This document shows, one piece after another, positions 1,620-34,412 of a DNA stretch of 39,874 nucleotides. Location of the stretch: positions 1 to 39,874 of the IMG/VR virus record IMGVR_UViG_3300031670_000004; one strand, 5' to 3'. The stretch comes from a virus. Within the stretch, counting starts at the first letter, position 1. Each line of letters starts with the position of its first letter. Below the pieces are notes generated by a model, which worked only from the letters and a program-made list of their open reading frames with translations, was not told the DNA's origin and made no database searches. A program made the position numbers and the translations under genes.

Positions 1620-1628
1620 TTATACACA
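1620..1628 (+). promoter_or_regulatory. DnaA-box match
   Basis: TTATACACA is a perfect match to the DnaA-box consensus TTATNCACA. It lies next to the -35 box of the leftward early promoter. Only one perfect box was seen, so chance occurrence is possible. Confidence 0.45.
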
Positions 1629-1630
1629 TA

Positions 1631-1659
1631 TTGAATACGCTAGATTTTTGTGGTAGCAT
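1631..1659 (+). promoter_or_regulatory. Possible rightward promoter, distal
   Basis: TTGAAT (1631-1636), 17 nt, TAGCAT (1654-1659). The -10 context TGTGGTAGCAT resembles the leftward early promoters (TGTGGTAGTAT). It has no open gene directly behind it and may instead be part of an operator. Confidence 0.35.
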
Positions 1660-1669
1660 CACAGCAAGG

Positions 1670-1751
1670 GTAGATCTTCGCAGATGCTGCCCATAATAAT
1701 TAACTTGACGGGCAGCTAATCTGTGCTACGCTAGATATTGCGAAGATCTAC
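1670..1751. repeat. Nested inverted repeats around the rightward promoter
   Basis: The outer arms are 13 bp and perfect: GTAGATCTTCGCA (1670-1682) and its complement (1739-1751). The inner arms are 7 bp: GCTGCCC (1686-1692) and GGGCAGC (1710-1716), the latter touching the -35 box. The layout suggests protein-binding operators or a cruciform. Confidence 0.7.
1705..1732 (+). promoter_or_regulatory. Rightward early promoter
   Basis: TTGACG (1705-1710), 16 nt, TACGCT (1727-1732) with an upstream TGc extended -10. The transcript would start near 1739, inside the right arm of the outer inverted repeat, and run into the hairpin at 1759-1781 before the replication genes. Confidence 0.6.
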
Positions 1752-1758
1752 ACAGAGA

Positions 1759-1781
1759 GGCACCAGCAACGGTGCCTTTTT
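1759..1781 (+). terminator. Terminator-like leader hairpin
   Basis: A perfect 6-bp stem GGCACC/GGTGCC with loop AGCAAC is followed by TTTTT. It lies about 20 nt after the inferred start of the rightward early transcript and before the first gene, so it could act as an attenuator or a 5' stabiliser. Confidence 0.65.
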
Positions 1782-1806
1782 GCTACCCTCTAGAGAGGAT
1801 ATAAAA

Positions 1807-1995
1807 GTGGAAGATACAAAAATAATAATCGAACGCTCGGCAAAAGACCGAGGGCTAATCATTGATCGCAGCGAACAACTTAAAAACCTTTCAAATAAAA
1901 AAACTATTACTGAGGCAGATTTGTATAGAGAATTTAGGTCGATGATCGGTGAATATATGGCCTTAGTTTTTGTTGAAGAGATCATGAAACCATGA
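1807..1995 (+). CDS. Small early protein, 62 aa (GTG start)
   Basis: I chose the GTG at 1807 because AGAGGATATAAAA precedes it; the in-frame upstream ATG at 1738 would sit on the promoter/hairpin leader. The product begins VEDTKIIIERSAKDRGLI and ends FVEEIMKP; it is charged and probably helical. It overlaps the next gene by 4 nt. The codons are more A/T-rich than those of the structural genes. Function unknown; its position as first gene of the replication operon suggests a regulatory or replication role. Confidence 0.6.
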   Translation: MEDTKIIIERSAKDRGLIIDRSEQLKNLSNKKTITEADLYREFRSMIGEYMALVFVEEIMKP

Positions 1996-2744
1996 AAGGC
2001 TTTTATATAGAGATCAGTAATGGTCTACTCGAACCAAAACATCAACAATCAATGGGCTCAGCGGTGTGGGAATTTATGTGGTGTCTTAATAAAATGACTT
2101 TAATCAAAGAAGATTACGGTTGGGTTCTAAGTAAAAAACCTATAAAATTAGAAGAAATAGCTAAAGATATTGGGAAAGCACGCAATAATATTTCGCAAAA
2201 TCTTATTAAATTAGAAAAATCTGGCTATTTAGAGCTTACTCACGCCCCATACGGGATAATTATTAAAATCAATAAAGCCAAAAAGAGGTTCAACCAAAAG
2301 GTAGAACCTAGGTTCAATGAAAACGTAGAACCTCGTAACGTTAGCGTAGAACCTAATAAAGACAAGACAGTAGACAAGACAGGTACTGCTGAGTTTAAAT
2401 CGAACTTCAAGCCTATTAAGCTTTCTAAGCCAAACAAAGCAAAGGGGCATATACTGGCTCAAGCCAAGCAAGTCTGCCAGATATTCAGTGATAACTTAGG
2501 CGGCTTCTATGTTGACAACCTACAACTACCGAAGTTGATTGGCTTATTAGAAATACATGGCATCGACATGGTGAGCGAGGTGGCGCTGTTCGCTTGCCAG
2601 CTTAAAGACAAGCCGTACCAAGTTAAGGTTAATAGCCCGGCCCAGCTAGCCGACAAGTGGTCACAGGTAATAAAACTAATGGACAACCCTGATGGCGATG
2701 AGCCACCAAGTGTTGTTAGACAACTAATGGGGGATAAACAATGA
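1992..2744 (+). CDS. Replication initiator-like protein with N-terminal winged helix
   Basis: 250 aa. Residues about 15-95 look like a winged helix-turn-helix: conserved AVWEFMWCLNKMT, then KLEEIAKDIGKARNNISQNLIKLEKSGYLEL, a classic recognition-helix and wing pattern seen in phage O-like and replication initiators. A linker of repeated x-VEPR/N motifs (VEPRFNENVEPRNVSVEPN) leads to a C-terminal helical domain (residues about 150-235). It is followed by a small overlapping gene and a DnaB-like helicase, the usual initiator-loader-helicase order. It could bind the control region at 1579-1806. The assignment rests on fold-like pattern and context. Confidence 0.6.
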   Translation: MKGFYIEISNGLLEPKHQQSMGSAVWEFMWCLNKMTLIKEDYGWVLSKKPIKLEEIAKDIGKARNNISQNLIKLEKSGYLELTHAPYGIIIKINKAKKRFNQKVEPRFNENVEPRNVSVEPNKDKTVDKTGTAEFKSNFKPIKLSKPNKAKGHILAQAKQVCQIFSDNLGGFYVDNLQLPKLIGLLEIHGIDMVSEVALFACQLKDKPYQVKVNSPAQLADKWSQVIKLMDNPDGDEPPSVVRQLMGDKQ

Positions 2745-3016
2745 GCTTAATAAACGCAAAATTATGGCAATCGACCTTTGATCCGCCAATGCCGGAAGCT
2801 ATGAACTATTGGGAGTTCGCTCGACTACGCAATATTCGTTGGCTTGGTAAAGACATCAAAGAACAGCTAGAACACTACCTAAAAGTAAAAAAGCTGTCCG
2901 AGTTATCGCCTGACAACAAAGACCTCGAAGAACTATGCCGATCCGAAGCGATTAGCCTAGGCAAGCTATACGTCGAACTTAAGAGAGCAGAGATCCAAGA
3001 AATTGACCATGAATGA
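2741..3016 (+). CDS. Putative helicase-loader-position protein, 91 aa
   Basis: It overlaps the initiator-like gene by 4 nt (ATGA) and the helicase start by 8 nt, so all three are co-translated. The product MSLINAKLWQSTFDPPMPEAMNYWEF... is acidic and helical, with no recognised motif. Its place between initiator and helicase suggests a loader or adaptor, but this is inference from gene order only. Confidence 0.5.
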   Translation: MSLINAKLWQSTFDPPMPEAMNYWEFARLRNIRWLGKDIKEQLEHYLKVKKLSELSPDNKDLEELCRSEAISLGKLYVELKRAEIQEIDHE

Positions 3017-3902
3017 CGATCAATATAGCCTAAAAACTCTAAAGCGTATATTTAGTAAGTTGCCCCAGACCCTCCAGCAAGCAGCTTGGTTAGACATGAG
3101 CAATGTCATGGAGGGCTACGCTGCCAATAAAAGCAAAGAGTTTGAGCTAGTAGCTATCGGTGAACTTGAAGACGATATCCTTGAGCATTATCATAATTTT
3201 GGCAAGATGCAGGGCTTGTCCAGTGGCTATGATGCTATCGATAAACTAACTAAGGGCTTTGTGCCGGGCGAGATTAGTGTCATTGCCGGCCGCACCAGCC
3301 ACGGTAAGTCGGCGCTGGCCTTAAACATGGCTGTCAATATTGCTAAAAATGGTACGACTGTGCTGTTTGTAACGCTTGAAATGACCAAGAAAGAGATCGG
3401 CTCACGTATCTACCACGTTTATCAGGACAGTCTCATTAAGCTGCCGATCCTATTTCAACTCCAAGACGAGCTAGACTGGCAATCAGTCGATGGGCTAATC
3501 AAGACGGCTAAAAAGAACGGCGCTGAGATTGTCTTCATCGACCATATTCACTACTTCAGTAGAGAGATTGAACACGCCGTTGAGAGCCTGAGTAACATAA
3601 CCAAAGAAATCAAAAAGAATGCCATACGCCATAATATCCCGATAGTTGTTATGAGCCACGTCCGTAAGTCTGGCACCAAATCTGCCGCCCTAGACAACGA
3701 TGAACTTAAGGGCAGTAGTTCGATAGCCCAGGACGCTGACATTGTGCTGTTTGTCCACCGGGATAAAGACATACCCGACAAGATAGCTGTGCAGATTACC
3801 AAGAACCGTAATAGAGGCTATGCCTATGATGATGACAAGGTTTTGCTAGAGTTTGTTGATACTAAGATTACCGAGGAGTGGTATGAATCCCTACCTAGGT
3901 GA
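3009..3902 (+). CDS. DnaB-like replicative helicase (RecA-fold ATPase)
   Basis: 297 aa from the ATG at 3009; a TTG at 3003 is a less likely start. Walker A is AGRTSHGKSA at residues about 93-102. The strand VLFVTLEM (about 118-125) holds the catalytic-Glu motif of DnaB enzymes. Walker B is EIVFIDHIHY, followed by PIVVMSHVRKSG (sensor-like) and ELKGSSSIAQDADIVLFVHRD, the arginine-finger region of the family. It lacks the usual large N-terminal DnaB collar domain, being about 170 residues shorter than bacterial DnaB. It probably unwinds phage DNA at the fork as a hexamer. Confidence 0.85.
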   Translation: MNDDQYSLKTLKRIFSKLPQTLQQAAWLDMSNVMEGYAANKSKEFELVAIGELEDDILEHYHNFGKMQGLSSGYDAIDKLTKGFVPGEISVIAGRTSHGKSALALNMAVNIAKNGTTVLFVTLEMTKKEIGSRIYHVYQDSLIKLPILFQLQDELDWQSVDGLIKTAKKNGAEIVFIDHIHYFSREIEHAVESLSNITKEIKKNAIRHNIPIVVMSHVRKSGTKSAALDNDELKGSSSIAQDADIVLFVHRDKDIPDKIAVQITKNRNRGYAYDDDKVLLEFVDTKITEEWYESLPR

Positions 3903-28592: not shown

Positions 28593-28755
28593 CTTTTAGC
28601 TCCTCCGGCAGTGTCGATAACTGCTCCTTACGCTCAACGGCTACTTGTCTGGGGACTTTAGGCGTAACAATACCCTGCACCTTATGTACTTTATCTGGTG
28701 GCAACGGATTGACTATGCCGCCCTCTGAGTACTTAGTTACTGGTTCGTTGTTCAT
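28564..28755 (-). CDS. Small protein, 63 aa
   Basis: The ATG at 28755 overlaps the chaperonin stop (TAATG), so it is probably translated by coupling with it. The product is polar and Pro/Glu/Lys-rich (PLPPDKVHKVQGIVTPKVPRQVAVERKEQL). No recognised motif. Because it follows the chaperonin directly, it could be a client or cofactor, but there is no direct evidence. Confidence 0.55.
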   Translation of the reverse strand: MNNEPVTKYSEGGIVNPLPPDKVHKVQGIVTPKVPRQVAVERKEQLSTLPEELKDESLYFAES

Positions 28756-30281
28756 TACTCTTTACTATTATACGCTAGGGCTGTATCGGAGAGTATCAAA
28801 GCTGAGGCAACACTGATGGCGTTCCTGACTACTTCCTTAATAACTAGCGTTGGATCGACTACGCCTAGTTCTAGGGCGTCTTTAGGCTCAGATGTAATAT
28901 GTTTCAGGTTATAACCAAACCACGCTCCAGTGCCCTCTAAATGCGCCAAATAGGCATCAGGGTTCAAGCCGGAGTTTTCCATCAGGATTCTAAACGGTTG
29001 CTTAAATGTATCGTCAAACTCACTGCCGGCAACTCTAGCTAGGGTTACGCCACCGCCCGGCACAATGCCGTCTTTCATAGCTGACTGGACTGCACAGACA
29101 GCGTCTTGGATACGCAACTTAAGCTCATCACGTTCAAACTCTAATGCTCCACCGACTTTAATAATAGCCATCTTACCGCTTAGTCTGGCTAGGCGTTCTT
29201 TGGCATACTGGACATCTTGAGGGTTATCGTCTTTCTTAACCTGTTCACGCAGGGCTTTAATGCGTGATTCGACTTCTACAGTGTTAGCATCACCACCTAG
29301 TACGGTAGTAGCTGAACCGGTTATAAGTACCTCTTTAGCAAAGCCTAGATTCTCGCTAGGGTCAAAGTCTGCGCCGGTGTATAACCTAGCACCGGTAAGC
29401 AGGGCAATATCGTCTAGGAACAGCGTTTGGCTGCCGGCAATAAATGGTGGCTCGACCGGGACTATCATAATCTTACCGATAGACTTAACCTTTTGTAATA
29501 CGCCGATAGCATCTTCACCCATGTCAGCTATTAAGACTACCTCGGTAAAGTTGGAATCAATTAGCTTCTGCACGATCGGGGCTATGTCTACCTCGGTGGC
29601 AAACCGCTTAGAGCTGATTAGAATAGGTACGTCGGTATGTTGTGACTGGTTATTGGCAATATCATTTATAAGAGCAGTGTCTCTAAAGCCTTTGCCAAAG
29701 TAAAAGCCCTCGACAATCTCGGGGTGTACGCCTAGTCCCTCGTAAGACTCAATCATTACACCGCCGTCTTTGCCGACTGTTTCCATAACTTTAGAGATCA
29801 TCTTACCAAGCGCAGGATCGTTAGCCGATATAGTAGCCACCTTTTCCAGCAATCCCTCGCTGATTGGCTTACTAACAGAATCAATATAGTCTAAGGCTAA
29901 CTTCTCAGCCTCTTTAAGTTTAACCAGTACTTGCCGAGCGTGTAGTCCCTGACCCTCCATCTTCCGGGCAGATATATATAGGTGGTGGGCAAGTAGTACA
30001 ACGGCAGTTGTTCCATCACCGGCTTTCTGGTTATTGCGCTCACTGGATAATCTAACAGATTGGATAACATCATCAACAAAGGGATCGGCATCTCTAACCA
30101 TCTTTATGTTAGTCACGCCATCATGAGAAAACAAGGGCGCACCGTGTCCGAAACCCAATATCATGTTACCGCTTAGTGGGCCATAGGACTTACGGGATAT
30201 ATCGTATAACTTAGTCGTGGCTTCTTTAATCTTAGCCTGTACTGCTTCACGGTCAGTTATTATTTCAGGTATTCTTATCAT
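28755..30281 (-). CDS. groL: GroEL-like group I chaperonin, phage-encoded
   Basis: 508 aa, about 40 shorter than bacterial GroEL and without the GGM tail. Equatorial ATP-site motifs are present: YGPLSG (residues 33-38), HDGVTN (53-58), AGDGTTAVVLLA (87-98), RLSGKMAIIKVGG (366-378), RIQDAV with the hydrolysis Asp (393), VPGGGV (408-412) and VVDPTLV (474-480). The apical region keeps EIVEGFYFGKGF, but the hydrophobic client-binding triplet seen as Y..YF in GroEL is changed to F..AL (about 200-204). It folds proteins in a ring with a co-chaperonin lid and probably folds phage virion proteins. The cognate GroES-like gene lies directly upstream with a 17-nt overlap. Confidence 0.92.
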   Translation of the reverse strand: MIRIPEIITDREAVQAKIKEATTKLYDISRKSYGPLSGNMILGFGHGAPLFSHDGVTNIKMVRDADPFVDDVIQSVRLSSERNNQKAGDGTTAVVLLAHHLYISARKMEGQGLHARQVLVKLKEAEKLALDYIDSVSKPISEGLLEKVATISANDPALGKMISKVMETVGKDGGVMIESYEGLGVHPEIVEGFYFGKGFRDTALINDIANNQSQHTDVPILISSKRFATEVDIAPIVQKLIDSNFTEVVLIADMGEDAIGVLQKVKSIGKIMIVPVEPPFIAGSQTLFLDDIALLTGARLYTGADFDPSENLGFAKEVLITGSATTVLGGDANTVEVESRIKALREQVKKDDNPQDVQYAKERLARLSGKMAIIKVGGALEFERDELKLRIQDAVCAVQSAMKDGIVPGGGVTLARVAGSEFDDTFKQPFRILMENSGLNPDAYLAHLEGTGAWFGYNLKHITSEPKDALELGVVDPTLVIKEVVRNAISVASALILSDTALAYNSKE

Positions 30282-31922: not shown

Positions 31923-32810
31923 ATGCTTCCGTTTGAAGATATATCATACGCTCAAGGTCCTTACAATATGTCAGCCAACACCGACCCTATGGTAATGATG
32001 AAGGCATCAGGCTACTATACTGGCAGCCTACAACCCTACCTCGATAGTCAATTAGATAGAAACTATGCCGATGCCAAACAGTACGGCAAGATACCGTACA
32101 TGTATCACTTCTTTGTTCCAGCCGTAGACCCAAATGTACAGGCTGCATGGTTCTTAAGAGCCGTATCACCACTAGCCGTCGGCGATGGCTATGCAGTAGA
32201 TGTAGAAATTGACGGTCCTAATCTAGTCGCAGATGTTTATACCTTTGTAACAGACCATCACAAGAATACTGGTTGTTATCCTTGGGTGTATATTAACCGT
32301 TACTTACGCCAGAAATACGACTGGTCAGCAGTCTTTGCTTTATGTAGCGAATGGATTGCTGCACCTGACGTTGCCTATACCGCCAATATCCCTGGCGTCG
32401 GTGTCTATGTAGCTCAACAGGGGCCAATAGTTAATGGTGTAGATACTGACGAATATTTTGGCACATTAGAATCAATAAAGAGTTATACTTATGGATATGT
32501 TAAACCACAGCCAGTCCCAGTTGCACAACCTACGCCAGCGTCGGTTCCGGCTACCCCCGTGGTTGTTTCCCCAACCCCGACGCCAACCCCTGTTCCGGTA
32601 ACGGTCACACCCTCCCCCACGGCTCCGGTTACAGTTGATACTCCCGTCTCAACCAGACCACCGGAGAGTTCTTTGAGTGTAGCTGCCGAAAACAAAAATA
32701 ATCCATCAAGAAACTCCACTCTCACACAAGCTACGGCAGCTACCCAAAATTCTAACCTTTTCACTTGGCTAATGAACATTCTAAAGGCTCTCGGGAGATT
32801 TTTTACATGA
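31923..32810 (+). CDS. GH25 lysozyme-type endolysin
   Basis: 295 aa. Residues 1-190 form a GH25 barrel: start FEDISYAQGPYN with the first catalytic-site Asp, KASGYY, IPYMYHFFVP (strand motif), GYAVDVEIDGPN with the D-x-E catalytic pair at about 96-98, CYPWVYINRY, and WIAAPDVAYT / GVYVAQQG. It would cut the beta-1,4 bond of peptidoglycan. A Pro/Thr/Val-rich linker (about 196-245) leads to a C-terminal amphipathic/hydrophobic stretch FTWLMNILKALGRFF that may help the enzyme cross or disturb the membrane. The next ATG overlaps its stop by 4 nt. Confidence 0.88.
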   Translation: MLPFEDISYAQGPYNMSANTDPMVMMKASGYYTGSLQPYLDSQLDRNYADAKQYGKIPYMYHFFVPAVDPNVQAAWFLRAVSPLAVGDGYAVDVEIDGPNLVADVYTFVTDHHKNTGCYPWVYINRYLRQKYDWSAVFALCSEWIAAPDVAYTANIPGVGVYVAQQGPIVNGVDTDEYFGTLESIKSYTYGYVKPQPVPVAQPTPASVPATPVVVSPTPTPTPVPVTVTPSPTAPVTVDTPVSTRPPESSLSVAAENKNNPSRNSTLTQATAATQNSNLFTWLMNILKALGRFFT

Positions 32811-34216
32811 GCGACTTGCCCGTCCACACCACGGTTGACGAAGAGACTAAAAACCTTTTAGAGTTCTATCCCCCGCATCCACCTCGTACCTCGACCCCTG
32901 AATATAACGCTACCCATGTTCTATTAACGCACACTCTAAATATGCCCTGTAGAGATTGTGGAGTGCGGCACACCACGCTTGCTGACCCTATCGCTAACCC
33001 TCTAGGAGCTAAAGACCTAGAAACCCACCACTGGCCATTGCAACGAGAGTTTGCCGACGCCATCGACCCCATGAAAGTCAATAAAGAATACCCTGAAGTT
33101 ACCGACAGGGACTCGTTAAACAAGTTTATTGACAGTCCTAAGAATATGTTGGTCCTTTGTGTAACTGGTGATACAAAAGTGATGATGGACAACGGTAAGT
33201 CTAAACCCATTAAAGACATTGTTGTTGGGGATATGGTGGTTGGCCACGATTTAGGTGCATACGAGGTAACCGCAATAATGAACCGTGAAGTAAACGAACC
33301 TCTTTATAATATTAACGGTGTTAAAATGACCCATAATCACCCAGTGCTAACTAGAAACGGTTTCGTCGAGGCATCTCTTCTGGAAGTAGGGCAAGTTATT
33401 TACCAAGTCGGGGTGTTCTTTCCTTATATGCTCCGTTTGCGACGGATAAAGTCTAAGGTTTTCAATAGCATTATTCGTCCTATTGCCATCGATATGATGA
33501 ATACGTTCCTCTGGCTTAAGTTTACGGCTAAGATGTTTCTCCATGACATATCGATGTTGTTGCATGGCACGATATTTACCGCTGCTTTCCCTGACACTAA
33601 TTCTTATATACCCCTTAGTCGTGACAGCAGGGGCAACGAACGGCTGGAAACTACGGGGTTTAGAGTTCAACAGTTTCAACCGACAAGTATTGGAACAGGT
33701 CTTTTTAATTCTTCGCTTAAGTTGCCAATCATAAACCGTGATTTCTTTACCGCAAATTTCACACTGGACAATACCCTTAGGAATACCCGCCTGTTGACGA
33801 CGCTTAGAAGAACACTCCTTGGAACAGGTTTTGTACCTAAACGCCAAATGGTTGACAATCCGAAAACTCGTGCCACAAATAACACATTTTTTAATCGTTT
33901 GTTGGTCAGGCTTACTCTTAAGACTGGGTGGATTTCTGTCAATCATATATCTATCTCTGATTATATAGGAAAGGTATACGACATACAAGTAGAAGGTTCG
34001 CATAGCTTTATAGCTAACAATATCGCTGTTCATAACTGTGACGTAGACCATCGTAGCCCTACTAGGGGCATTCATCACATTGGAGATGCTTTGGAAGCCT
34101 GTAAACGCTTTATTATAGATGGCTACATTCTAGATGATGTGGCCACTAATGCAGCGACAGACTTAGCCAAAGACGCTCAACTAACAGCGAGCGAAGTCCC
34201 TAACCAACAAATATAA
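32807..34216 (+). CDS. HNH nuclease-like protein interrupted by an intein
   Basis: 469 aa precursor from the ATG at 32807 (ATGA overlap with the lysozyme stop). Exteins are residues 1-117 and 411-469; spliced, they give 176 aa. The extein contains CRDCGVRHTT, an ETHH motif, NMLVL joined to CDVDHR, and GIHHI, giving an HNH arrangement. The intein (residues 118-410) sits exactly in this presumed active-site motif, as many inteins do. Excision would be needed to restore the protein. The role of the spliced protein is uncertain, possibly nuclease or recombination related. It follows the lysis module. Confidence 0.82.
   Translation: MSDLPVHTTVDEETKNLLEFYPPHPPRTSTPEYNATHVLLTHTLNMPCRDCGVRHTTLADPIANPLGAKDLETHHWPLQREFADAIDPMKVNKEYPEVTDRDSLNKFIDSPKNMLVLCVTGDTKVMMDNGKSKPIKDIVVGDMVVGHDLGAYEVTAIMNREVNEPLYNINGVKMTHNHPVLTRNGFVEASLLEVGQVIYQVGVFFPYMLRLRRIKSKVFNSIIRPIAIDMMNTFLWLKFTAKMFLHDISMLLHGTIFTAAFPDTNSYIPLSRDSRGNERLETTGFRVQQFQPTSIGTGLFNSSLKLPIINRDFFTANFTLDNTLRNTRLLTTLRRTLLGTGFVPKRQMVDNPKTRATNNTFFNRLLVRLTLKTGWISVNHISISDYIGKVYDIQVEGSHSFIANNIAVHNCDVDHRSPTRGIHHIGDALEACKRFIIDGYILDDVATNAATDLAKDAQLTASEVPNQQI
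33347..33946 (-). CDS. Antisense zinc-finger HNH homing endonuclease inside intein
   Basis: 199 aa from the ATG at 33946; the frame extends further upstream but the promoter and a weak AGAGATAG site favour this start. Two Cys-rich knuckles occur at residues about 21-49 (CVICGTSF...TCSKEC) and 62-90 (CEICGKEI...TCSNTC). A linker domain follows (VTTKGYIRISV). The HNH_3 core HRYVMEKHLSRKLKPEERIHHIDGNRTNNAIENLRLYPSQTEHIRKEH lies at about 130-177, with HH, N and H. It would cut intein-less alleles and promote copying of the intein. Its C-terminal codons overlap intein block B in antisense. All expected motifs are intact. Confidence 0.88.
   Translation of the reverse strand: MIDRNPPSLKSKPDQQTIKKCVICGTSFRIVNHLAFRYKTCSKECSSKRRQQAGIPKGIVQCEICGKEITVYDWQLKRRIKKTCSNTCRLKLLNSKPRSFQPFVAPAVTTKGYIRISVRESSGKYRAMQQHRYVMEKHLSRKLKPEERIHHIDGNRTNNAIENLRLYPSQTEHIRKEHPDLVNNLPYFQKRCLDETVSS
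33960..33988 (-). promoter_or_regulatory. Antisense promoter for the intein endonuclease
   Basis: On the minus strand: TTGTAT (33988-33983), 17 nt, TATAAT (33965-33960), then 13 nt to the ATG at 33946. It lies inside the intein block F coding sequence. A chance match is possible, but spacing and -10 are consensus. Confidence 0.55.
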
Positions 34217-34226
34217 GGAGAATAAT

Positions 34227-34412
34227 ATGAGTTTTACAAAATTAGTAGGCGCCTACGCCAAGTATGTACCGCTTGTCGTGCCAGTTTTACTGGTAGTCGT
34301 TCAGGCTCTAGTAGATAACGGTTATGTGTCGGTGAGCGGTCACACACTAGCCTTAGTCAATGTATTACTGGCTGCCGTCGGCTTTCACGCTCTGCACGTT
34401 AGGACGAAGTAA
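34227..34412 (+). CDS. Small two-helix membrane protein, possible second holin
   Basis: 61 aa with AAGGAGAATAAT before the ATG. Two hydrophobic segments are visible: residues about 13-29 (VPLVVPVLLVVVQALVD) and about 41-56 (LALVNVLLAAVGFHAL), joined by a short turn (NGYVSVSGHT). This is a holin-like hairpin. It lies after the intein-bearing gene and could serve lysis together with, or as an alternative to, the holin at 31608. Confidence 0.58.
   Translation: MSFTKLVGAYAKYVPLVVPVLLVVVQALVDNGYVSVSGHTLALVNVLLAAVGFHALHVRTK

Follow-up and report, generated by a model that had tools for sequence, protein, structure and literature searches.

The window analysed in this work is the whole stretch of 39,874 bp that makes up one virus record, and its gene content (terminase, portal, head protein, GH25 lysin, and chaperonin) identifies a tailed phage. 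An open reading frame of 469 aa (32807-34213) lies directly after the lysin gene on the plus strand and is uninterrupted along its length. This frame encodes a phage protein that carries an in-frame intein, and the DNA between the splicing blocks of that intein encodes an HNH protein on the minus strand. The coordinates of these features are listed in Table 1. The GroEL-type chaperonin of the phage (Cpn60, E-value 4e-39) is encoded at 28755-30281 on the minus strand, which is opposite to the late genes.

Table 1. Positions of the intein, the antisense HNH gene, and the flanking parts of the host protein in the window.
Feature	Coordinates	Strand	Basis
N-extein, HNH-like phage protein (PCRDC ... 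ETHHW ... NMLVL)	32807..33157	+	79% aa identity to the uninterrupted L001 protein
Intein, 293 aa, in-frame	33158..34036	+	PF14890, TIGR01443, precise insertion relative to L001, AlphaFold ends match inteins
Intein blocks A (C1 VTGDTKV) to B (T58-H-N-H61)	33158..33340	+	Sequence; alignment with other inteins
HNH homing endonuclease gene, 199 aa from ATG; stop codon 33347-33349	33350..33946	-	HNH_3, phrog_15471, catalytic columns, AlphaFold
Possible sigma-70 promoter, TTGTAT-17-TATAAT, within block F DNA	33960..33988	-	9/12 matches; weak
Intein blocks F and G (YIGKVYDIQVEGSHSF ... IAVHN)	33965..34036	+	TIGR01443 match; alignment
C-extein, starts with Cys+1 (CDVDHR, part of the HNH/zinc site of the host protein)	34037..34213	+	L001 alignment

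The sense frame matched the Pfam family Intein_splicing (PF14890) above the cut-off with an E-value of 3.4e-11 and TIGR01443, the C-terminal region of inteins, with an E-value of 5.9e-8. The splicing residues Cys1, T58-H-N-H61, and VHN|C+1 are present. Between blocks B and F, profile searches of the sense frame matched no endonuclease family, and no homologue of this sense linker was found. The AlphaFold model of the sense intein has pLDDT values of mostly 70-92 at its ends (72-92 across most of residues 1-84), and residues 85-255 are disordered. The best PDB matches of the model are all inteins or intein-like domains (E-values 9e-5 to 1e-3), and the sense ends are thus predicted to adopt a HINT or intein-like fold. 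This intein is predicted to splice. A split intein in a fractured gene was rejected for the window because the host gene is one open frame of 469 aa. A group I intron was also rejected since no Rfam match with an E-value up to 1 was obtained in 32800-34300.

The host protein itself is an HNH-like protein. The spliced extein matched the phrog_8048 HNH endonuclease with an E-value of 4.1e-5, and the unspliced protein gave 0.044. The intein is inserted immediately 5' of the Cys in the CDVDH site of the host protein. A related virus contig (L001) encodes the same host protein without the intein, and it was the only relative of the extein found. The DNA alignment between the window and this contig reaches the insertion point from both sides, which indicates a precise insertion.

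The antisense protein combines an HNH core (H131, HHIDGN...N...NL) with two zinc knuckles. It matched HNH_3 with an E-value of 1.2e-8 and the phrog_15471 HNH endonuclease with an E-value of 1.2e-20, and H131, H151, N159, and N163 occupy invariant catalytic columns in the HNH alignment. The AlphaFold model of the antisense product exhibits an HNH fold (pLDDT 85.5), and its best solved match is I-HmuI (E-value 5e-3, probability 1.00). The HNH gene thus occupies the interval between the splicing blocks: its stop codon comes directly after block B, and about seven codons separate its ATG from block F. The first-pass annotation had claimed that the sense frame holds intact intein blocks and no endonuclease domain, and that a complete zinc-knuckle HNH protein is encoded in antisense between blocks B and F. 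The profile searches, which could have contradicted these claims, bore them out, with an intein in the sense frame and an HNH nuclease in the antisense frame. Cleavage of the empty site by the HNH protein of the window would be consistent with its family and with the distribution described below. No close relatives of this HNH protein or of the intein were found in viral contigs, phage records, and GTDB genomes, where only distant HNH proteins were detected. A zinc-knuckle HNH protein related to that of the window is encoded in an annotated intron of the dUTPase gene of Carjivirus communis, a crAss-like phage (L010 2495-3349).

The HNH and intein frames of the window are in register, codon on codon, so that each TTA, CTA, or TCA codon of the HNH gene would be read as a stop codon in the sense frame. 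None of these codons occurs among the 13 Leu and 16 Ser codons of the HNH gene, and they make up 51% of Leu codons and 25% of Ser codons in the other genes of the phage. The probability of a stop-free sense frame by chance was 8e-7 analytically and 5e-6 by simulation, where 10.9 stops were expected; both estimates are built on the codon usage of this phage, and a recently acquired HNH gene may have had a different usage. Only one intein-bearing sequence of the window type is known, and the substitution counts given below are those of the terminase family.

The HNH relatives in viral contigs included three loci where the HNH gene lies wholly antisense inside an intein-bearing terminase ORF. At these loci the intein interrupts the terminase within its Walker A motif (GGNR|C...HN|SGKT). 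Follow-up of the three loci gave eight contigs of one family (L097-L104), and a scan with the HNH proteins of this terminase family gave 241 viral loci, of which 80 were retained and 79 entries were scored. The HNH gene is 100% embedded in antisense in an intein-bearing terminase ORF in 78 of the 79 scored entries, with one register throughout, and the C-terminal junction of the intein in those 78 entries reads [IV]HHN|S[GS]K[ST]. Two further cases of an antisense HNH in a terminase intein were identified in L024 and L034. The cultured phages with the same layout comprise nine records, which are Pectobacterium phage Ymer and its kin and Pseudoalteromonas phage PHS3. The total besides the window is at least 88 viral contigs and nine cultured phage records, all in the terminase large subunit; several of the contigs are from identical or near-identical phages, and the distinct terminase intein sequences number 65. 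Exactly one Terminase_6N match was obtained in 13 of the 18 searched records, and the other five were negative for Pfam terminase.

The annotation of these phages tends to conceal the layout. The open frame of the PHS3 terminase locus (L113, KX912252.1) spans 1625-3748 with the intein included, and the antisense HNH gene lies at 2890-3600. The terminase large subunit of PHS3 in GenBank covers 1622 to 2797 only, which is the part after the intein, probably because the antisense HNH gene was called. No intein is mentioned in the paper on phage Ymer, which states that the annotation of the large terminase was manual (PMC11445585).

The sense frame stays open throughout the terminase family. No sense stop was found in 16,154 overlapped codons across 64 distinct HNH-bearing terminase inteins, where random synonymous codons would give about 7.8 sense stops per HNH gene (range 4 to 12). 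The substitutions between 16 separate close pairs of terminase inteins were counted by codon position. The counts within the HNH region were 235, 214, and 655 at HNH positions 1, 2, and 3, and those outside it were 59, 26, and 160 at sense positions 1, 2, and 3. The excess at third positions indicates that the antisense frame of the terminase family is under protein-level selection. The pattern also indicates that the splicing ends are selected in the sense frame and that the sense linker mainly needs to stay open, and this linker could have a further function.

These counts bear on an alternative in which the true coding sequence is the sense linker, with an antisense ORF that is open by chance or has decayed. 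Chance openness of in-register antisense frames is common in G+C-rich DNA, and several such cases were seen: the antisense ORFs over HNH genes in L013, L015, L018, L052, L067, L079, L089, and L090 were taken as chance, with a G+C content of 0.55-0.67 and no intein motif. The G+C content of the window is 44%, the antisense frame matches an HNH profile at the E-value given above with an intact catalytic motif, the sense linker is without homologue and predicted to be disordered, and the substitutions in the terminase family follow the codons of the HNH gene. A chance or decayed antisense frame is therefore extremely improbable. The first-pass annotation had named, as evidence against its reading, homologues whose sense mid-region aligns with a known domain and whose antisense frame is not conserved; in the homologous layouts it is the antisense HNH frame that is conserved, and the sense mid-region is not.

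Expression signals for the antisense gene were found in the terminase family. A Shine-Dalgarno sequence is found 5' of the first antisense ATG in 33 of 53 cases and before internal in-frame starts in 16 of 615. Near-consensus sequences resembling sigma-70 promoters (at least 9/12 matches) lie just upstream of the antisense gene in 66% of cases compared with 3.5% of control windows; the control windows were taken from the same strand further upstream, so a codon-conservation bias of block F may contribute to this difference. The sequence in L147 is TTGACA-17-TATAAT. These sequences are predicted to act as antisense promoters. The candidate promoter of the window reaches a score that is also reached by 23 of 379 same-size windows of its genome, and a stricter promoter scan made no call at this site, so its assignment to the HNH gene is suggestive only. 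There is no clear Shine-Dalgarno site before the HNH gene of the window. The early gene cluster of the phage (35646-39263) is also on the minus strand, and read-through is thus another possible route to expression of the HNH gene. The proposal that endonuclease synthesis is independent of the host gene is therefore supported by promoter and ribosome-binding signals in the terminase family and stays tentative for the window.

The distribution of the terminase inteins exhibits a pattern of homing of the whole intein-HNH unit, as indicated by three observations. PHS3 and phage AL share the same host species and, with the intein left aside, have terminases of 98.5% identity, and comparison of the two genomes reveals a clean 900-bp insertion at GGAG|SGKS with flanks that are 97% and 95% identical. 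The intein DNA of L103 is 88-91% identical to that of L097 and L104, while the terminase flanks are 57-58% and 71-73% identical. Terminases without the intein were found in phage C75C1, Escherichia phage KW1E, and many Klebsiella phages. The same-layout homologues and intein-less alleles that the first-pass annotation had proposed to look for were thus both found, the former among the terminase inteins and the latter in L001 for the window site and in AL for the terminase site of PHS3.

The same observations are relevant to the possibility that a mini-intein was invaded by a free-standing HNH passenger, which homes for itself into inteins and is not the engine of the mobility of the intein. 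The nearest relatives of the HNH protein of the window are mostly free-standing or intron-encoded, and its subfamily was otherwise not found in inteins, which would fit such a passenger. However, the HNH gene and the intein of the terminase family are kept together with an unchanged register even where the terminases are highly diverged (in loci found via the HNH), and the empty sites of this family lack the whole intein. An invading passenger is thus considered unlikely, and mobility of the intein and the HNH gene as one unit is preferred.

The window and the terminase family differ in host gene, in register (0 in the window and 2 in the terminase family), in HNH subfamily (zinc knuckles in the window and a helix-turn-helix-like N-terminus in the terminase family), and in intein sequence, where no homology beyond the fold was detected between the window intein and the terminase inteins (best E-value 0.078). 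These differences argue for at least two origins, and by sequence comparison the window is most likely a case independent of the terminase family.

Splicing is supported by the cultured phages, which are viable with an interrupted terminase P-loop, and by the single Terminase_6N match in each of the 13 records mentioned above. The insertion might instead be an intron-like or ShiLan-type out-of-frame element, or might inactivate the host protein, with no splicing intein involved. ShiLan-type elements likewise leave an open host frame across a hidden HNH gene (PMC11855218), but the clear intein profiles with their catalytic residues, the lack of an Rfam intron match, the viability of the cultured phages with this layout, and the single terminase match in most searched records all speak against a non-splicing element, which is very unlikely.

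We consider it highly likely that the window carries a mobile intein whose two functions, splicing and homing, are each encoded by a different strand of one DNA segment. The continuous sense intein would splice itself out of the host protein, with its middle serving as a disordered linker whose main job would be to stay open. The product of the antisense gene would be a free HNH homing endonuclease. It would cut host-gene alleles that lack the intein, such as those of a co-infecting phage, and repair of the cut allele would copy the entire intein into it. Production of the endonuclease would then be independent of both host-gene translation and splicing.

Inteins have been reviewed as full-length, mini, or split, which are three configurations (PMC7765530). 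The inteins with an antisense endonuclease probably represent a fourth configuration that has at least two origins and is widespread in phage terminases, with an autonomous promoter, ribosome-binding site, and nuclease and with homing uncoupled from host-gene expression and splicing. The distinct homing architecture proposed in the first-pass annotation is thus supported as a layout, but it is recurrent and widespread and not unique to the window. An endonuclease encoded in antisense inside an intein was not described in the open-access literature searched; the layout is apparently undescribed, and its priority is uncertain.

Two strands of one stretch of DNA carry the two functions of the intein in this layout, which explains how an intein may home without a nuclease made as part of the host protein. 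The timing of nuclease expression may also differ from that of a late gene, for instance the terminase. The layout represents natural two-strand overlapping genes where one strand must encode a protein and the other mainly avoids stops. Gene callers hide it, as the terminase of PHS3 was annotated only after the intein and those of the Ymer phages were annotated by hand.

The layout is similar to canonical large inteins with an in-frame LAGLIDADG or HNH domain in that the splicing blocks are at the ends, the endonuclease lies between blocks B and F, the insertion is precise and in-frame, and the distribution is homing-like. It differs in that the endonuclease of the window is a separate protein from the other strand, outside the intein polypeptide. 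Fractured genes that have split inteins with a free-standing endonuclease were reportedly described by Dassa et al. in 2009. Those systems also have the endonuclease as a separate protein beside the intein halves, whereas the intein and host gene of the window form one continuous ORF. The HNH endonucleases of group I introns, such as I-HmuI, share the same nuclease fold, but splicing in the window would be performed by protein and not by RNA.

Other hidden HNH genes were observed on the same strand as their host genes. The 1471-aa ORF of L085 (729-5141) contains a same-strand HNH gene in another frame (2054-2728), and L086 is likewise arranged; in both, a host segment (KTFELNIGDPVL) occurs in two similar copies, one on either side of the HNH gene, which is a ShiLan-like hidden HNH gene with a duplication. 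The methyltransferase gene of Mycobacterium phage OwlsT2W (L007 1650-3566) contains a same-strand out-of-frame HNH gene that resembles the published ShiLan type, and another lies in an annotated gene of Gordonia phage GAL1 (L009 2371-3258), a gene that has a repeated motif (DPVNHPKHY / DPVNKPQHY). In L003 (3331-4720), an HNH gene lies after a dUTPase gene and terminates in another copy of the C-terminal dUTPase segment (IAQGIFQKYL...RRGGIGS), as though the HNH gene had inserted there and restored the 3' end of the dUTPase gene.

The ShiLan domain of phage methylases is a hidden HNH gene read in another frame of the host strand (Arsenault et al., 2025; PMC11855218), and the words antisense, opposite, and reverse are absent from the text of that paper. 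The ShiLan domain and the layout of the window both conceal an HNH gene in a host ORF that is open throughout, and the ShiLan domain also spreads like a homing element. A ShiLan-type insertion was rejected for the window because its HNH gene is antisense and a splicing domain is present. The ShiLan HNH gene is on the same strand in another frame, without splicing domains and with no ribosome-binding site reported (PMC11855218), whereas the HNH gene of the window is antisense within an intein, and its counterparts in the terminase family have promoter and ribosome-binding signals.
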